Shown in pieces: positions 24,781 through 35,431 of a stretch of 64,000 bases of DNA. Location: NCBI RefSeq assembly GCF_002777425.1, contig NZ_MDVC01000001.1:1-64000 (forward strand). Reading direction: 5' to 3'. The position numbers and the translations under genes were made by a program. The notes beneath the pieces were generated by a model, which saw only the letters and a list, made by a program, of their open reading frames with translations, was not told the origin of the DNA and searched no databases. The DNA is from Snodgrassella alvi (GTDB lineage Bacteria; Pseudomonadota; Gammaproteobacteria; Burkholderiales; Neisseriaceae). Within the stretch, counting starts at the first letter, position 1. Each line of letters starts with the position of its first letter.

Positions 24781-25899
24781 TTACTTAATCAACTTTAGAT
24801 GATACATAGAATGAGGTTTATTGCTTACCAAACCAAAAGTCAAATCTACAATATCATTAGAATCAATATTTAATTCATTTGCAATATCCTTAATTGATAT
24901 TTTATCTTCATCCAAATAATTAAATAATTGTGGCCATACTTTAGAAGTATCTCTACGCATAGGTTGAGGTTCTTTTTTTCTATACCCCAATTTAGCTATT
25001 TGGGGACTTAATACTCTTGCGTATGTCCATTCCGAAATTATTTCCAGTTTATATAATCTATAAGCTAGCGCTGCTATTGAAACTCCAAAAACTGATTTTA
25101 ATTTAAGTAGCTGTTCAATGCTGTTTATTGATTGATTACGAAAGGGCAATAAAGCATCTTTAGGCATGAGAAATGCTGAAGCAAATTCATTTGCATTTTT
25201 TTCGATAGTCCTATTGTCATTCACACTACATTCACAAAATGGTCCCGCATCATTATTATTGTTTGATGAATACAGGTCATGTTTCATACTATAAACATCG
25301 CGAACAAGATGCCCAAGTTCATGAGCAGAATCAAATCTACTACGTTCGGCTGATTTTTTATTATTCAAAAAAACAAAAGGTATATTTCTGTTCCAAGTGC
25401 AAAAAGCATCTACTTCTATAGCTTCAATCGCCAAAGAAAAGACTCTAATTCCTTTTGACTCAAGTAATTCCACCATATTTGCAATAGGTCGAATACCTAA
25501 TCCCCATTCAGACCTAAGCACGTGTGCAGCTGTCTCAGGGCTGTAGTCCGATAAATCTGGCAAATCAGTTTTTTTAAGCTCAAAACGCTCATCAAACCAA
25601 TCATTTAGCATAAAAGCAATAATACCGTAAGTTAATGCCAAACGTTTTAATCGGTTAGAAGTTTTAGAGTTAGCTCGAAAACTTACCTGATGATCACTGA
25701 GTACTGGTAAATCATCATTAATAACAAAAAAATCAGGAGAGAATTGCAGAATTCTCCCCAACAATTGCAGATCAGGCTCACTAATACCAGCTAAATAATT
25801 ACTAATTGTTCTGGTAGTAACACCTAATGCATCTGCAAGCGCAGCCTTAGATAGCCCGCGCCGGTCTAAAGCAAATTCAAGCCGACGTGGATTAAACAT
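24781..25899 (-). CDS. XRE-family DNA-binding protein fused to an ImmA/IrrE metallopeptidase
   Basis: 372 residues. Helix-turn-helix at the N terminus (LSKAALADALGVTTRTISNYLAG, about 16-38), then an ImmA/IrrE (COG2856) peptidase domain with HELGH in SAHELGHLVRD at about residue 194 and the downstream zinc-ligand region EKNANEFASAFLMP. Such fusions act in prophage or mobile-element regulation by cleaving a repressor, or as the antitoxin/sensor half of two-gene modules. It lies 17 bases after the unknown gene at 25917, forming a two-gene operon. AT-rich codon use points to horizontal origin. Confidence 0.85.
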   Translation of the reverse strand: MFNPRRLEFALDRRGLSKAALADALGVTTRTISNYLAGISEPDLQLLGRILQFSPDFFVINDDLPVLSDHQVSFRANSKTSNRLKRLALTYGIIAFMLNDWFDERFELKKTDLPDLSDYSPETAAHVLRSEWGLGIRPIANMVELLESKGIRVFSLAIEAIEVDAFCTWNRNIPFVFLNNKKSAERSRFDSAHELGHLVRDVYSMKHDLYSSNNNNDAGPFCECSVNDNRTIEKNANEFASAFLMPKDALLPFRNQSINSIEQLLKLKSVFGVSIAALAYRLYKLEIISEWTYARVLSPQIAKLGYRKKEPQPMRRDTSKVWPQLFNYLDEDKISIKDIANELNIDSNDIVDLTFGLVSNKPHSMYHLKLIK

Positions 25900-25916
25900 A
25901 ATTACACCTATTCAAA

Positions 25917-26573
25917 TTACTTACTAGAACCTATCTTTCGACTAATTTCAATCTTTTCAGCTTTCACAGGGTCAGGTATTCGTGCGATAAGTCTGTCACT
26001 AACAGAATTGAAACTTATGCTTGGTAAAAGAATTCGTTTCTTCCACGCTTTAACATACCCATTTTTAAAATCAGCTGGAATCGATAGTTCCATTTTTAAC
26101 TCTTCTGAATCGTGATGAAACAAAAGTACAAAAATTTTGGTTTTATGATCAAAATAAAATTCTGATTGTGAAAGTGCTTTACTTAATTCAGAACCTTTTC
26201 TCGCAGTATTACAAGGACAAGCATATTCAACAGCTACATCTTTAGTTCCAGTACATACATATAGTGCACTACATCTATCAGGAGTAATAGTATAAGCTAT
26301 TTCACCACGCCCTTCACGTGAAACCCACCCAAAAGGTAATAACTTTTCACGCATTGAAGCCACAATATAGTCTGGCAATATTTTATTAAAAGTAAATTTT
26401 GGGAAATAGTGAGATTTAGTATCATGAACCTTAAGTAATGCTGCCGAAACTACTTCTACAAAAAATTCTGGAGTTAATCGTGAATCAATATCAAATAATT
26501 CTTTGCGAACCTGATTTTTATCACTGATAAAAATTGAATCAAATAAAGGTTCAACTACTGTTAGATTAAACAT
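25917..26573 (-). CDS. Unknown partner of the XRE-ImmA/IrrE protein
   Basis: 218 residues from the ATG at 26573 (MFNLTVVEPL), chosen because AGGAAA lies just upstream; the longer frame is unlikely. I do not recognise the family. The segment KDVAVEYACPCN, SELSKALSQSEFYFDH and TKIFVLLFHH has the layout of a PD-(D/E)xK core (acidic strand, then a helix with a conserved Gln and Tyr, then a hydrophobic strand), but the usual Lys is not where expected, so this is only a suggestion. Operonic position ahead of an ImmA/IrrE regulator suggests a toxin or effector controlled by it. Confidence 0.65.
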   Translation of the reverse strand: MFNLTVVEPLFDSIFISDKNQVRKELFDIDSRLTPEFFVEVVSAALLKVHDTKSHYFPKFTFNKILPDYIVASMREKLLPFGWVSREGRGEIAYTITPDRCSALYVCTGTKDVAVEYACPCNTARKGSELSKALSQSEFYFDHKTKIFVLLFHHDSEELKMELSIPADFKNGYVKAWKKRILLPSISFNSVSDRLIARIPDPVKAEKIEISRKIGSSK

Positions 26574-26700
26574 AAATTTCCTATTTGTAGACATCAATAT
26601 GAGGTATAATAATAGGAAATTGAACAAGAATCAATATTTTTCTAAAACCCTTTTTTTTAGATAAAAAGTATATTTATGCTTAATTATTTAGTCCATAACT

Positions 26701-26744: not shown

Positions 26745-27074
26745 TCAGGCCGCCATAGCCATACATTTGTCTGCACAGGCATTGCAGGCTTCGGCACAGC
26801 GCTGGCAGTGCCCCATATCAAACCGCCCGCATTCCTGCGCACAAGCGCGGCATAGTTGAGCACATAGCTGGCATACCTGTGGGACAAAAGCGCTGTTCTT
26901 ACACATAAAATTAACCGCAAGGGCACACATTTCAGCACATTGCAGATCCAGACTGATACATTTAGCCATCATTTTGACATCATCTTCCTGTAGACAGGCT
27001 GTTGAGCAATACTGGCACAAGGCTATACAACAGTTACATGCTTCTACACATTCCTTAAATTTCAGCGCATCCAT
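26745..27074 (-). CDS. Four-helix-bundle copper-binding (Csp-like, DUF326) protein
   Basis: 109 residues from 27074 (AAAGGA upstream), with 19 cysteines in spaced CxxC-like repeats: CVEACNCCIALCQYC, CISLDLQCAEMC, CQLCAQLCRACAQECG and CQRCAEACNACADKC. This is the Csp1/Csp3 pattern, in which the cysteines line the inside of a helix bundle and hold many Cu(I) ions. There is no Tat or Sec signal, so it resembles cytosolic Csp3. No copper exporter is adjacent. Confidence 0.88.
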   Translation of the reverse strand: MDALKFKECVEACNCCIALCQYCSTACLQEDDVKMMAKCISLDLQCAEMCALAVNFMCKNSAFVPQVCQLCAQLCRACAQECGRFDMGHCQRCAEACNACADKCMAMAA

Positions 27075-27095
27075 GATTCGCATCCTTTTCAACAA

Positions 27096-27745
27096 TATTT
27101 TGATTTAACAAGAGAAATCAAAATCAGTCTATAAAACCATAGCGCATATTGCAATCCAGCCAGAAGTAAATAAATATATGATTTAGATATGTTTATTTAA
27201 CTTTTACTAGCAAATAATCAATATATGCCAAATACACAATATCAACTGCCTGTTACTGTAAACTGGCCAGTGGAAAATTCAGGAATGATTTTAAAATTGA
27301 TGGTTTGAATGATTATTTTCTAAATTTACAATTATTTGTCTTTCAAGCCTGCCCTGTCAGCAAATGGGTTGAATAATTAACAGGCGCTGTTTCACTACAA
27401 AGTAACACAGCAATATGACAATCGATACAAAATATAATGTAACCCATTGTATATCAAATTTTATTTAATAAGATTTGTACAAAACACTATAACTGCCGCG
27501 CGGATAAATGGGTCACAATCGCTTTCAACTACAACAATCATCGTTTCTCGGCGCTCATTTTAATCATTTCAGACCAATCATTACTCGCAGCCGGCATTGT
27601 CCGTTTATCTTGTGTTTTTTCTTGATGGCTGCGGCAATGATTTTATCTAAGCATCCAGTCTGACAATAACGATATTAATCAGCAGTATATTGAAAATCAA
27701 ATGAACAACCCCATTTCAATACCCTGATATTTAAAGGAATTTATT
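27096..27745. other. 650-base gap without a gene
   Basis: AT-rich intergenic DNA. I see no open frame with a start and ribosome site and no tRNA-like sequence. The right end (27734-27742, AAAGGAATT) is the ribosome site of the zinc-finger gene. Confidence 0.45.
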
Positions 27746-28018
27746 ATGGCTAGTGGATGGGCTTCAGATGATGCTGTAAACCAGCAGATAGAGAGCACAA
27801 TAGCAGATGCCCTCAATCATGTACGCCAGCAGATGGAACAGGCAACAGAAAGTGCAGAATTTTGTGAAGAGTGTGGTGAAGCTATTCCATTAGCACGCCG
27901 TCAGGCAATTCAGGGCGTGCGCTTTTGTGTTGGCTGTCAAACCGAACGTGATAAGGAAATACAGAAAACATTCAGTTTATATAACCGGCGTGGCAGTAAG
28001 GACAGTCAGCTACGCTAG
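27746..28018 (+). CDS. DksA/TraR family C4-type zinc finger protein
   Basis: 90 residues resembling E. coli YbiI: an N-terminal helical stretch and a zinc finger C-x2-C-x17-C-x2-C in EFCEECGEAIPLARRQAI and FCVGCQ. It lacks the long coiled coil and tip aspartates of true DksA. Small members occur in phages and plasmids as well as chromosomes, which fits this accessory stretch. Role unknown, possibly at the RNA polymerase secondary channel. Confidence 0.88.
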   Translation: MASGWASDDAVNQQIESTIADALNHVRQQMEQATESAEFCEECGEAIPLARRQAIQGVRFCVGCQTERDKEIQKTFSLYNRRGSKDSQLR

Positions 28019-28329
28019 GCTGATTGAATTGGGCTATCAGGCACAGATCGAATGGCCTGCACTGTGCAAAGATTCACACAATTTCTATTTAAATGATAAA
28101 TATTTATTGGAAAAAGTGATGGTAATGGCCTGAAATTTAGTGCTTAAAGTCAGTATGAAGTTTTAAGCCCACTATTGATGTACCGGTATTATTTCTGTAT
28201 CTGAAGTTGAAAAACTTGTTTGGCACAATTAGTCTGATATGTTGAAAGCAGTAAATCAGCCCGATAGAAAATCGATTTGATAATCATAACTAACTATGCC
28301 ATTAAGTGTATTGGTTCTATCCGTTGCCA

Positions 28330-28674
28330 CTAACAGCAATTATGTTGCAAAGGCATAGTCAGCTTAACTGCATCCTTTTCGGTAATAAATATCACATCCG
28401 CCTCAGGCCAGTCTGCTGGTTTAATCACGACATGGTCGTCCAACGCAATGGTTTGCTTCAAATCAATGCCTAAAGTTTGTAATGCCTGAAAAAAGCGCTC
28501 TGGTCGGCCAATAGCAGCGATAGCTGCACAATGCTTGCCTGCAAACTCTATTGCTTGAGCAGTCTGCCGCGGCTGGTTCAGGCAATAAAAATCAGCATAA
28601 TTTAATGTGCTATGGATGATTGACACACCACCGGCCTGATCTGCACACATTAATGAACATGCTTTTAGTAGCAC
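28330..28674 (-). pseudogene. lpxK C-terminal fragment
   Basis: The readable part FAGKHCAAIAAIGRPERFFQ, LQTLGIDLKQTIALDDH and WPEADVIFITEKDAVKL matches the C-terminal third of tetraacyldisaccharide 4'-kinase (AVAGIGNPxRFF and FVTEKDAVK motifs). The N-terminal P-loop domain is absent, and upstream sequence shows no continuation. It cannot phosphorylate lipid A precursor, so a complete lpxK must exist elsewhere. Confidence 0.75.
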
Positions 28675-28839
28675 ATATCTGCATGCATCTGCTTTTCGGT
28701 GCAGGCAAGCGCTATGCTGTATCTTTCTAATTATATAAAAATCACTATAACCGATAAACAGACTTTATTCGGGTTTAATTAGTGGTTTCTGGTTTACCAG
28801 CTACAATGCATACAACCAGATATAGCATACTTCAGCGGT

Positions 28840-29583
28840 TTAGATCTTGCGACCAAACCACTCTACTTTGCCGATAATTTCAAAATCCTGTTCGCTATTA
28901 GCCAAATCGATAGTGAATGGTTCATAAGCATTATTGGCTGATGTTACCAGCAATTGATTATTTGGTTTGAGTTGTGTACGTTTTACCAGAATATTCTTTC
29001 CTATGCGTAACACATACAGGCCATCGCCTCCAGCTTTTTTACTGTGATTAATCAGCACATGATCGCCATCGTTTAGCACACCGGTCATGCTGTCATCCTT
29101 GACAATCAGGGTACTGAGTTTTTGCGGATCTACATTCAGATAATTTTCCAGCCAGTTACGGTTAAAGGCAATGGTACACATTGCTTTGCCTTCTGTGGCT
29201 TCAATATTATCCGGGTTTTCGGTTGAACATACTGGAATAAATGCATAATCGCTGGCACAGACTGCATGAGGATGGTTGCCATAACCACAATCGGTTTCAC
29301 CGATAGGCGTATTCTTTGCCAGTGGATTAGGCAGTTCTGCGTAATACTTTGCATTTTTCTGGTCAAATTTTGGCCCTATGCCTGTTGCCAGCCATTTTAT
29401 TTCTACCTGTGCAACACGAGCTATTTTTATCAGATTGGTAGTACTGGGTTCTGCTCCGTCTCTAACCCATTTTGATGCTGTTGGGTACGCTACCTCTACT
29501 CTTCTGGACAACTCAGATACACTGCCGAGAATATCCACTACTTCCTGCATTCTGGAGGCAAAGCCAACATTAAAATTTTCCAT
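28840..29583 (-). CDS. XRE-S24 (CI/LexA-like) phage-type repressor
   Basis: 247 residues from the ATG at 29583, with AAGGTAA upstream. The N-terminal HTH (GSVSELSRRVEVAYPTASKW, about 20-39) is followed by a linker and a C-terminal S24 peptidase domain with the catalytic Ser in VKDDSMTGVLNDGDHVLI and the Lys in NILVKRT. It would undergo RecA-stimulated self-cleavage like lambda CI. Three related 14-bp operator-like words lie just upstream (29614-29707), suggesting autoregulation. No other phage gene is present, so it is an orphan of a decayed prophage or a domesticated regulator. Confidence 0.88.
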   Translation of the reverse strand: MENFNVGFASRMQEVVDILGSVSELSRRVEVAYPTASKWVRDGAEPSTTNLIKIARVAQVEIKWLATGIGPKFDQKNAKYYAELPNPLAKNTPIGETDCGYGNHPHAVCASDYAFIPVCSTENPDNIEATEGKAMCTIAFNRNWLENYLNVDPQKLSTLIVKDDSMTGVLNDGDHVLINHSKKAGGDGLYVLRIGKNILVKRTQLKPNNQLLVTSANNAYEPFTIDLANSEQDFEIIGKVEWFGRKI

Positions 29584-29613
29584 ATTTGAATTACCTTCAA
29601 ATAAAAACAATGT

Positions 29614-29707
29614 AAGGTTTAATTTAAAATTTATTATTAAACAATCATTTACAATTTAAAGTTTAATTAAATACAACATTCAGCTATATAAAATTAAATT
29701 AAACCTT
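29614..29707. promoter_or_regulatory. Three operator-like sites upstream of the S24 repressor
   Basis: AAGGTTTAATTTAA at 29614-29627, a variant AAAGTTTAATTAAA at 29658-29671, and the exact inverse TTAAATTAAACCTT at 29694-29707. The layout of three sites resembles a phage immunity control region. Confidence 0.75.
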
Positions 29708-29733
29708 GCTAAAAATAACTTTTGCGATATAAT
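29706..29733 (+). promoter_or_regulatory. Rightward promoter overlapping an operator
   Basis: TTGCTA (29706-29711), 16 bases, TATAAT (29728-29733). The -35 box touches the third operator word, as at a cro promoter. A good ribosome site TAGGAG (29751-29756) follows, but no open frame starts after it. Confidence 0.55.
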
Positions 29734-30642
29734 TTAGCATGTATATATATTAGGAGTAGCAATTCAACACATTAAATATATTCCAAACTAACATTATAAA
29801 TTTAAGCCAAAGTTGCTATTTAAGCTTACTGGTGTAGCATCAATTACTTGTACTGCACTATAGCTGCTTAATATGATATCTCTATCGGGTAAGCGTTGAT
29901 GATACCATGTCGTCATGTACAAGAAAATGCTTGGACATGAGTTAATTTGCGCCTAAATCACTGTATATACAATCAGGCAATCGTAAGTTAACACGTAATA
30001 TTACAACCATTGGTAAAGTTTGCTTTATATAAGGGGCGGGCTATAAACATATTATATGTGAACTTGTGTTAATTTTATAGCCTTTTTTTCATAAAATAAA
30101 CATAAGTTATTCTATAATTAAACTTGAATAATTATTTATTTAAAACTGATTTTTCTGGTTTATCTTACTGCTTACTATCCTTTCAGTTCATAAAACTTGC
30201 GATATTCTAAATATAAACTCAATTTGTACAACAAAAAACTTAAATTTATTTATACAAGTTAATTTGTAAATACATTTGATTATATCATTAATTTATTATC
30301 AAGATTTATCATTATTTTAATGCTATTGAACTATTATTCAATCTTCATTTCAGTTTTACTTATCTTTTTTTATACAGATATTAAAAGAAATGTTACTTCA
30401 AAGTTAAAAATAGCGCGCTGCGTAACAATATGAAATATATAAAACTTGTTAGCTATTGGATGCTCTGTAATCAATACTCGGATGAATAGACAGCTTCTGG
30501 ATTATCTGGATATTTTATTAACAAAAGTTTGAAAGATTAAACGGCTTTTCCGGTTACAGAATATTTTAAGCTCAATAAATTATCGTTATTACCGCCAGAT
30601 GCAGCCAGTGATATTCACTAACTGCAAATGCTGATCATTATT
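29734..30642. other. About 0.9 kb without protein genes; possible noncoding transcript
   Basis: Very AT-rich. The only structure I can support is a plus-strand terminator at 30038-30089. The rightward promoter at 29706 could feed it and give a transcript of about 350 nt with no open frame. From 30090 to 30642 I see nothing. Confidence 0.4.
30038..30089 (+). terminator. Orphan terminator
   Basis: Stem GGCTATAAA (30039-30047) and TTTATAGCC (30074-30082) followed by seven T. No gene precedes it on this strand. The 26-base loop is long. Confidence 0.6.
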
Positions 30643-31128
30643 TTAGGGCTGACGCTGCCAACTGCCTGACTGGCCACCTTCTTTATGTTGCAGGCAAATG
30701 TCACTGATAGTCATACTGCGGTCTACTGCCTTGAGCATATCATATATGGTCAGCAGGCCGATGCTGGCTGCGGTTAAGGCTTCCATTTCCACGCCAGTCT
30801 GTCCCGTGTTTTCGGTTTGTACGCAGATGGTTATACTGCGCTTTTCGTCATCAAGATTAAAATCCACATTCACCCGGGTCAGGGCGATGGGATGACACAG
30901 AGGAATTAGATTACTGGTTTGTTTGGCCGCCTGTATGGCTGCAATCCGAGCGACACCAAGTACATCACCTTTTTTGCTGTCACCGCTAAGTATTTTGCTA
31001 TAGGCATTGTCGTTGACACTAATTGTACCGCTTGCAATGGCAATACGCTTACTGTGTGGCTTGGCACCTACGTCTACCATATGAGCTTCGCCACGGCTAT
31101 TGAAATGAGTTAACTCGTCTGAATTCAT
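30643..31128 (-). CDS. moaC: Cyclic pyranopterin monophosphate synthase
   Basis: Second step of molybdenum cofactor synthesis. 161 residues (E. coli 161). Conserved segments: [31 protein letters not shown] and the C-terminal [11 protein letters not shown] with the catalytic Lys. Divergent from mogA, 70 bases apart, so the two probably share a control region. Confidence 0.96.
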
Positions 31129-31198
31129 CTTGCTTCACTGACAGGCTAAAAGGTCTATATTACAATAATTGCCTTTTTGCTGCTGGGAATGGTTTGAT

Positions 31199-31774
31199 AT
31201 GAGCACACTACCTTTATTAAAAATCGGTCTGGTTTCTATTAGTGACCGGGCATCTACTGGTGTTTATGCTGATCAGGGTTTGCCGGAATTGAAAAAATGG
31301 TTGCAGCGGGCGGTATTGAATCCGCTGGAACTGGTCGAACATCTGATACCGGATGAGCAGGCTCTGATTGAAAGTACACTGACGCAGCTAGCGGATAAGG
31401 AAGCTTGCCCGCTGATTCTTACTACTGGTGGCACTGGCCCCTATCTGCGCGATGTGACACCAGAAGCAACGCTAGCAGTGGCCGACCGGGTAATTCCCGG
31501 CTTTGGCGAACTGATGCGGCAAATCAGTTTACACTTTACGCCCACGGCTATTCTGTCGCGTCAGGTAGGCGTATTGCGTGGAAACAGTCTAATTCTGAAT
31601 TTACCCGGTAAACCGACTGCCATTGCTGAAACGCTGGGCGGGGTAAAAGATGAGCATGGTAAAACGCTAATTCCGGGAATTTTTGCTTCGATACCGATTG
31701 CGGTGGATGCCGTTGGCGGTCCGCTGATTCAGACTGATGCGGATTTCTGTCCGGTGGTGTTGCCCAAGCGCTGA
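31199..31774 (+). CDS. mogA: Molybdopterin adenylyltransferase
   Basis: Activates molybdopterin by adenylylation for molybdate insertion. 191 residues from 31199 (MSTLPLLKIGLVSISDRAS); the in-frame upstream ATG at 31169 is not needed. MogA/MoaB fold with ILTTGGTGPYLRDVTPEATLAV and the C-terminal NLPGKPTAIAETLGG loop. Pairs with moaC on the opposite strand. Confidence 0.94.
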   Translation: MSTLPLLKIGLVSISDRASTGVYADQGLPELKKWLQRAVLNPLELVEHLIPDEQALIESTLTQLADKEACPLILTTGGTGPYLRDVTPEATLAVADRVIPGFGELMRQISLHFTPTAILSRQVGVLRGNSLILNLPGKPTAIAETLGGVKDEHGKTLIPGIFASIPIAVDAVGGPLIQTDADFCPVVLPKR

Positions 31775-35123: not shown

Positions 35124-35380
35124 TCTTATTCCTTTCCGAGGAAGGTGCCGTAAAAATCAATTTTTTGACAGTAATTGATATGCCATCAGGCCACTGGCAG
35201 GCCAGAACAGCAATATTCTATGCTGCTTTTACAACCGCTATAGTATCGAAAACAGGGCGATAAAACCGCAATGATGGCGTTATTGCTGTCTGATTTAAAA
35301 AAATTAACAATAACATCAAACTGACGCAGATAAAAGTCAAATATCTGCTTCAGAAAGAATAGACAAGTACGTGATACAAA
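35124..35380. other. pntA upstream region
   Basis: About 260 bases that should hold the pntAB promoter. I cannot pick convincing -35/-10 boxes. Confidence 0.35.
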
Positions 35381-35412
35381 AAAGCCAGCCATCAGAAGTA
35401 ATGGCTGGCTTT
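35381..35412 (-). terminator. Terminator of the siderophore-binding protein gene
   Basis: Arms AAAGCCAGCCAT and ATGGCTGGCTTT with loop CAGAAGTA, with a T-rich tract on the minus strand. Confidence 0.88.
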
Positions 35413-35431
35413 GGCTGAGTATTAAGTGATG

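Follow-up and report, generated by a model that had tools for sequence, protein, structure and literature searches.

We analyzed a 64,000-nucleotide stretch of DNA from Snodgrassella alvi (contig NZ_MDVC01000001.1 of NCBI RefSeq assembly GCF_002777425.1, positions 1 to 64,000), hereafter called the window, in which the gene for an S24 phage-type repressor (28840-29583, minus strand) faces a rightward promoter (29706-29733, plus strand). We propose that this locus is a domesticated repressor-promoter pair of a Mu-like phage that now controls a noncoding RNA, a reading to which we assign a probability of about 0.55. Its parts are not equally firm. Conservation of the locus is well supported by sequence comparison, a Mu-like ancestry is likely, an RNA output of the promoter is likely but unproven, and an RNA structure in the stretch that follows the promoter is weakly supported.

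The locus was compared among 11 syntenic sequences (the window included), 14 genomes of the genus, and 83 genomes of the family. Of 11 loci taken from relatives, 10 have moaC next to the repressor gene on its promoter side, the exception being a more distant Neisseriaceae bacterium (L019, 48% identity). Genes for dapB and transhydrogenase, named by their Pfam matches, also flank the eight longer loci. The gap between the repressor gene and moaC measures 765-1617 bases in the relatives and holds no reading frame of more than 70 residues except one of 155 residues on the minus strand of L018, which has the longest gap. The DNA-binding domain of the repressor was found at E <= 1e-9 in 12 of the 14 genus genomes and was missed in G006 (60% complete) and G012. 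Judged by its sequence and gene order, the locus is a fixed, syntenic part of most of the genus and not a stray orphan.

An initial sequence-only reading of this DNA had described the repressor gene as intact, and this is borne out by an uninterrupted frame of 247 residues with Pfam Peptidase_S24, HTH_3, and Phage_CI_repr domains (phrog_4). Orthologues are 247-253 residues long when L019 is set aside. In an alignment of 12 repressor sequences (alignment A1), conservation is highest in the DNA-binding domain, whereas the linker varies. Across codons 1-72, synonymous changes outnumber nonsynonymous changes in all six sub-windows, a pattern which indicates that the DNA-binding domain is under strong purifying selection.

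Between the repressor gene and the promoter lie two exact copies of the 14-bp word AAGGTTTAATTTAA in opposite orientation. One, O1 (29614-29627, plus strand), is close to the repressor start, and the other, O3 (29694-29707, minus strand), has two bases in common with the rightward -35. These are the sole exact copies in the assembly (2.58 Mb, 115 contigs), and a repeat of such length arises in 7 of 1,000 dinucleotide shuffles of positions 29584-29743. Of the 11 syntenic sequences, the same eight keep both words, O1 with two mismatches or fewer and O3 with zero or one; S. communis carries an identical substitution in both. The remaining three sequences, which form the S-bin9 clade, have a word with 2-3 mismatches about 20 bp further on, over the -35 end and the spacer, a match that is weak in AT-rich DNA. 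O1 is probably a site of repressor autoregulation. The 160-bp operator region has a G+C content of 17%, so looser word matches mean little. Words with up to three mismatches occur 15 times in the window compared to 11.8 expected (standard deviation 3.5), which is not above chance. The sequence-only reading had counted three operators, of which the two exact inverted copies stand, whereas the third word (29658-29671, plus strand) is unsupported. This word has two mismatches, a chance-level match, and it reaches two or fewer mismatches at that place in the window alone, the other 10 syntenic sequences having at least three mismatches there or being unlisted.

Ten sigma-70-like matches occur in positions 28000-30700, and the promoter itself, TTGCTA-N16-TATAAT, is the best of them (10 of 12 bases). 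The number of such matches is not above chance (shuffle mean of 13.1), and the weight of the promoter therefore comes from its conservation. The overlap with the outermost word that had been described earlier is correct. The promoter is apparently homologous to the early promoter of a prophage of the Mu-like kind in G014, a genome from another genus of the family. The window promoter reads CTTGCTAAAAATAACTTTTGCGATATAAT and the G014 promoter reads CTTGCTAATTTTAAGTTTAACGCTATAAT. We scanned the family genomes with a pattern that accommodates both sequences, allowing up to two mismatches, and it matched once each in 12 of the 83, namely 11 of the 14 Snodgrassella genomes and G014. A reversed-pattern control gave a single match in total across the 83 genomes.

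What follows the promoter is the candidate noncoding RNA (29742-29956, plus strand), whose start we place by the -10 and whose end we place where conservation stops. As a neutral yardstick, we used four-fold sites of the neighboring genes, compared between the window and each relative. The stretch is 81% identical in S. communis, 85% in WF3-3, 78% in wkB298 (169/217), and 56% in G005, compared to four-fold site identities of 72%, 64%, 44% (384/873), and 39% (51/130, from fewer genes), respectively. When the promoter and the upstream part are included (29584-29956), identity with wkB298 is 82% over 373 nucleotides (nt), and it drops to 37% in positions 29957-30642. A 291-nt query that includes the promoter was found as a single copy in 8 of the 14 genus genomes, reaching in G005 only through its first 106 nt (to 29805). 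By comparison, a control gap (28019-28839) had no match in five of six relatives. In the S-bin9 clade (three genomes), the promoter is kept, and the promoter region is about 75% identical among these genomes while the four-fold sites of their repressor genes are 34-40% identical. In pairwise comparison, this similarity extends 62-65 nt beyond the -10 when S-bin9 is one of the partners (two pairs) and 12 nt between the other two genomes. We also observed a short island, TATGTGAA..T.TGTTAA, at 30055-30072 of the window and in several relatives, amid otherwise poorly conserved sequence.

The sequence-only reading had stated that the promoter leads to no gene. This is accurate with respect to long frames, but it overlooked the conserved stretch. 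A ribosome-site-like TAGGAG (29751-29756, plus strand) is invariant in the eight rows of the main-clade alignment (alignment A2) and has no common start codon after it, and no plus-strand frame of 30 or more residues beginning with ATG, GTG, or TTG starts between this motif and position 30320. A coding signature is absent in all frames of 29742-29956, where the best 20-codon window has a z score of 2.98 and contains stops. The repressor gene, used as the coding control, gives z scores of 3.8-6.4 with no stops. Because an antisense frame in this control also gives 2.6-4.1, values near 3 are not specific. A peptide encoded in the stretch was rejected on these results. Also rejected was a 42-residue minus-strand frame (29794-29922), which three or four close relatives retain but which is cut short in S. 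communis, wkB298, G007, and G005. Membership in a known RNA family was likewise discarded after Rfam models applied to 27000-31200 produced two snoRNA matches only, both below their gathering scores. Two features by which small RNAs are recognized from sequence are present, namely a promoter of its own and conserved sequence that lacks a coding signature. A hand-chosen four-helix structure for the stretch includes five pairs with changes on both sides compared to 2.0 in shuffles, a value reached by 9 of 500 shuffles.

Several observations weigh against a conserved RNA made from this promoter. First, the helices were picked on the same sequences on which they were evaluated, and one of five structure measures shows no excess (175/500). 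The single-sequence fold of the window is ordinary (z = -0.95), and energy tests with shuffled columns are weak (z = -1.1 to -2.0), with the opposite strand scoring slightly better. Second, there is no shared intrinsic terminator. The window has one good candidate, three relatives have weaker and unrelated ones, and seven have none; a further scan found none. Third, the sequences used to build the promoter pattern were already known, and its independent value is limited to the lack of matches elsewhere. Fourth, the G005 stretch, with its low overall identity, divides into parts of 70%, 40% (middle), and 64%, and a homologue of the stretch in the S-bin9 clade is unconvincing, as a sequence model found none and the best hit of a structure model has an E value of 0.5. 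Finally, promoter-bearing gaps in this region are often conserved. S. communis and WF3-3 share 83-84% identity with the window in the gap at 35124-35431, with 132 of 308 bases matched in wkB298, and the gap between moaC and mogA is 93-96% identical in all three.

Conservation that continues unbroken from the repressor start to 29956, together with folding signals that do not weaken on the opposite strand, would also fit a block that serves as a long regulatory region or leader of the repressor gene, either read leftward or acting as DNA. We regard this explanation as unlikely, since the best conserved promoter points rightward straight into the stretch and would be left without a purpose. Moreover, the leftward promoter-like matches (first hexamers at 29884 and 29660) agree at 9 of 12 bases, and matches of this kind are no more frequent than in shuffles.

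The case for a Mu-like ancestor is built on the G014 prophage region (L050), whose repressor has a DNA-binding domain 74% identical to that of the window protein. In L050, the repressor gene diverges from a gene for an HTH_35 (phrog_769) regulator, presumably of the Ner type, beyond which lies the gene for a transposase that carries Mu DNA-binding and Mu-transpos_C domains. By analogy, this suggests that the lost equivalent of the cro side consists of the HTH_35 gene and the transposase. A tblastn search of the gaps in all 11 syntenic sequences recovered no piece of a ner gene or transposase (best E of 0.13). The earlier proposal that the cro side has been lost from an otherwise intact region is upheld for the repressor, two words, and the early promoter. 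The Mu-type transposase of L050 (4320-5972) is only 550 residues long and its PHROG family is matched in two pieces, and so the G014 prophage may also be decayed. The G014 region has no match to AAGGTTTAATTTAA closer than four mismatches, though its promoter matches that of the window, and thus operator homology with G014 is not established.

A Mu-transpos_C domain is present in 2 of the 14 genus genomes and is missing from the genome that contains the window. There is therefore no sign that the locus duplicates an intact Mu-like prophage elsewhere in its own genome, which was an outcome that would have undone the original proposal; this result applies to Mu-like prophages, as other prophage kinds were not searched for. 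Candidate viral relatives were also discarded. None of the viral-contig relatives of alignment A1 was confirmed, and all 242 matching records in a phage collection are below 60% identity. When the G014 repressor was compared with viral contigs, four loci were recovered, three at 57-58% identity and a partial one at 30%. The exact promoter pattern had no match among viral contigs, and the three contigs at 57-58% have at least seven mismatches to it within the 400 bp before the gene.

An alternative role that draws on the same phages is superinfection immunity, wherein the repressor silences incoming Mu-like phages that carry the same early operator and the local promoter merely autoregulates. 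The preferential conservation of the DNA-binding domain, the Mu-like prophage of the sister genus with its similar domain and matching early promoter, and the Mu transposases in two genus genomes are all compatible with this role. We nevertheless consider it rather improbable. It leaves about 215 nt of conserved sequence after the promoter unexplained, and in G012 and G002 the S24 repressors that neighbor the transposases differ in their N-terminal domains. The viral searches described above also count against it, given that they yielded neither a confirmed relative of the aligned repressors nor a contig with the exact promoter pattern, and that the mismatches before the three viral repressor genes are so numerous.

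The repressor could be responsive to a cellular signal, but probably not to the usual one. Its Ser-Lys dyad is present, with Ser165 and Lys201 invariant in all 12 sequences. After the FIP segment, an Ala-Gly motif is found in eight of nine other S24 homologues and in none of the 12 orthologues at that place. A single orthologue has Ala-Gly further along, at a different distance, and Cys-Gly is found in none of the 12 in the inter-domain segment. Since the motif of related S24 repressors is absent from its usual place, ordinary RecA-driven self-cleavage of the repressor is doubtful. The same genome has a second intact S24 repressor (L057, contig C54, about 123967-124533) that keeps Ala-Gly, and 12 of the 14 genus genomes have similar matches, which are 39-42% identical to the window protein. 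Contig C54 also carries a broken S24 repressor homologue with stop codons (75002-75282). A phylogenomic study of 75 Snodgrassella strains (PMC9239279) lists 25 specific genes common to all Snodgrassella, among them a 251-residue "Phage repressor protein C" with an S24 domain. Its length fits the orthologues described here, and it may be the same gene. The study gives a figure of 80 million years for coevolution in bees.

The sequence-only reading had suggested that the repressor now serves another purpose, such as control of genes elsewhere. A LexA DNA-binding domain was found in none of the 14 genus genomes but in 10 of 14 control genomes, and it is therefore conceivable that an S24 protein took over a regulon; the LexA-like gonococcal protein NG1427 has a small regulon according to PMC3040777. 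The search for the 14-bp word that had been suggested with this proposal found no exact copy in the assembly beyond the local pair, which leaves control of genes elsewhere unsupported. Words with at most one mismatch number five, the same as in the reversed control, and two of these are the local pair, while one of the other three is in a coding frame and two are between frames. A 19-bp pattern with at most three mismatches gave 51 matches compared to 45 in the control. Near matches are thus at the control level, and we find it quite doubtful that the repressor mainly controls genes elsewhere, with the proviso that the true operator may differ from the word. Finally, a very short peptide made from the promoter, perhaps with a nonstandard start after the invariant TAGGAG, is highly improbable, as no ATG, GTG, or TTG frame after this motif is held in common, no coding signature is present, and a frame that wkB298 and G007 leave open is interrupted by a stop codon at the corresponding position of the window. 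These alternatives are not all mutually exclusive.

Given these comparisons, we favor a noncoding RNA under control of the domesticated pair, and its history and operation might have been as follows. While the genus was still young, the immunity switch of a Mu-like transposable phage would have become fixed in its chromosome. The repressor would bind O1 and repress its own gene, and it would bind the site at the rightward early promoter and thereby keep the RNA silent. That promoter, which once would have served a ner-type gene and a transposase, would now drive a conserved noncoding RNA of about 215 nt in the main clade. A signal that inactivates the repressor would allow the RNA to be made, and the repressor may have a cellular role with a trigger other than RecA cleavage. 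The sequence comparisons themselves show that the repressor gene, the promoter, and the stretch after it are conserved, that the locus is syntenic, that the DNA-binding domain is homologous to that of a Mu-like prophage with a matching early promoter, and that a coding signature is absent; we infer the direction from phage to host, repressor binding, repression, transcription, and a product that acts as RNA. A more ambitious version, which we put forward tentatively as a possibility, is that a genus without LexA has kept a Mu-like repressor and early promoter for most of its history as a private stress switch, with a regulatory RNA as its only output and a signal other than self-cleavage driven by RecA.

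Other features were noticed near the locus. A gene for a DksA/TraR-like zinc-finger protein (27746-28018, plus strand; Pfam zf-dskA_traR, phrog_54) is convergent with the repressor gene. It is 87-100% identical in seven relatives and has no match in L016-L019, and it is possibly a second phage relic. Positions 24781-26627 on the minus strand encode a helix-turn-helix and Peptidase_M78 (IrrE/ImmA-like) protein and an adjoining 236-residue protein with no Pfam or PHROG match. This pair is matched at 71% and 44% in wkB298 (L020) and is unmatched in the other seven long syntenic loci, which points to an accessory insertion, perhaps a toxin-antitoxin or defense module. A minus-strand fragment at 28330-28674 covers only positions 216-296 of the 328-position LpxK model. 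Among the 11 relatives' loci, only L012 matched it, over 21 residues, and the fragment therefore appears to be a decaying partial copy.

A search of open-access literature in one library, covering titles and the starts of abstracts, brought no paper on this locus to our notice. Domesticated phage repressors are already known, but here it seems that all three elements, the repressor, its operator-like words, and the promoter, persisted after the phage was lost, while the promoter leads into a conserved noncoding stretch. If our proposal is correct, then the locus is an example of a lysis-lysogeny switch that has become a cellular RNA switch, and it might explain the sensing of stress or of phages in a lineage without LexA. 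Genome engineering has been reported for bee gut symbionts in general (PMC11389375), and so this circuit can be tested in Snodgrassella, which is one of them.

The proposed system resembles three known ones in different respects. DicF is a phage-derived small RNA, and like RNAs of its type, the output of the locus would be noncoding, would stem from a prophage relic, and would be governed by a repressor of phage type; there is no sequence relation between them by Rfam over 27000-31200. Another counterpart is NG1427, which we take to be an S24, phage-type repressor. The likeness lies in a genus without a LexA DNA-binding domain, and L057, which retains Ala-Gly, may be the nearer counterpart of the gonococcal protein. 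In vitro cleavage of NG1427 with RecA is described in PMC3040777, which cites Schook et al., whereas the repressor at our locus is missing the cleavage motif and has no evident regulon. A third parallel is the immunity region of a Mu-like phage. As in L050, the repressor gene and the early promoter diverge. The Snodgrassella locus has operator-like words between the two, and both the promoter and the DNA-binding domain resemble those of a Mu-like prophage in the same family. The Snodgrassella locus differs in that its repressor lacks Ala-Gly at the usual place, the ner-type gene and the transposase are gone, and the promoter instead opens into a conserved noncoding stretch.
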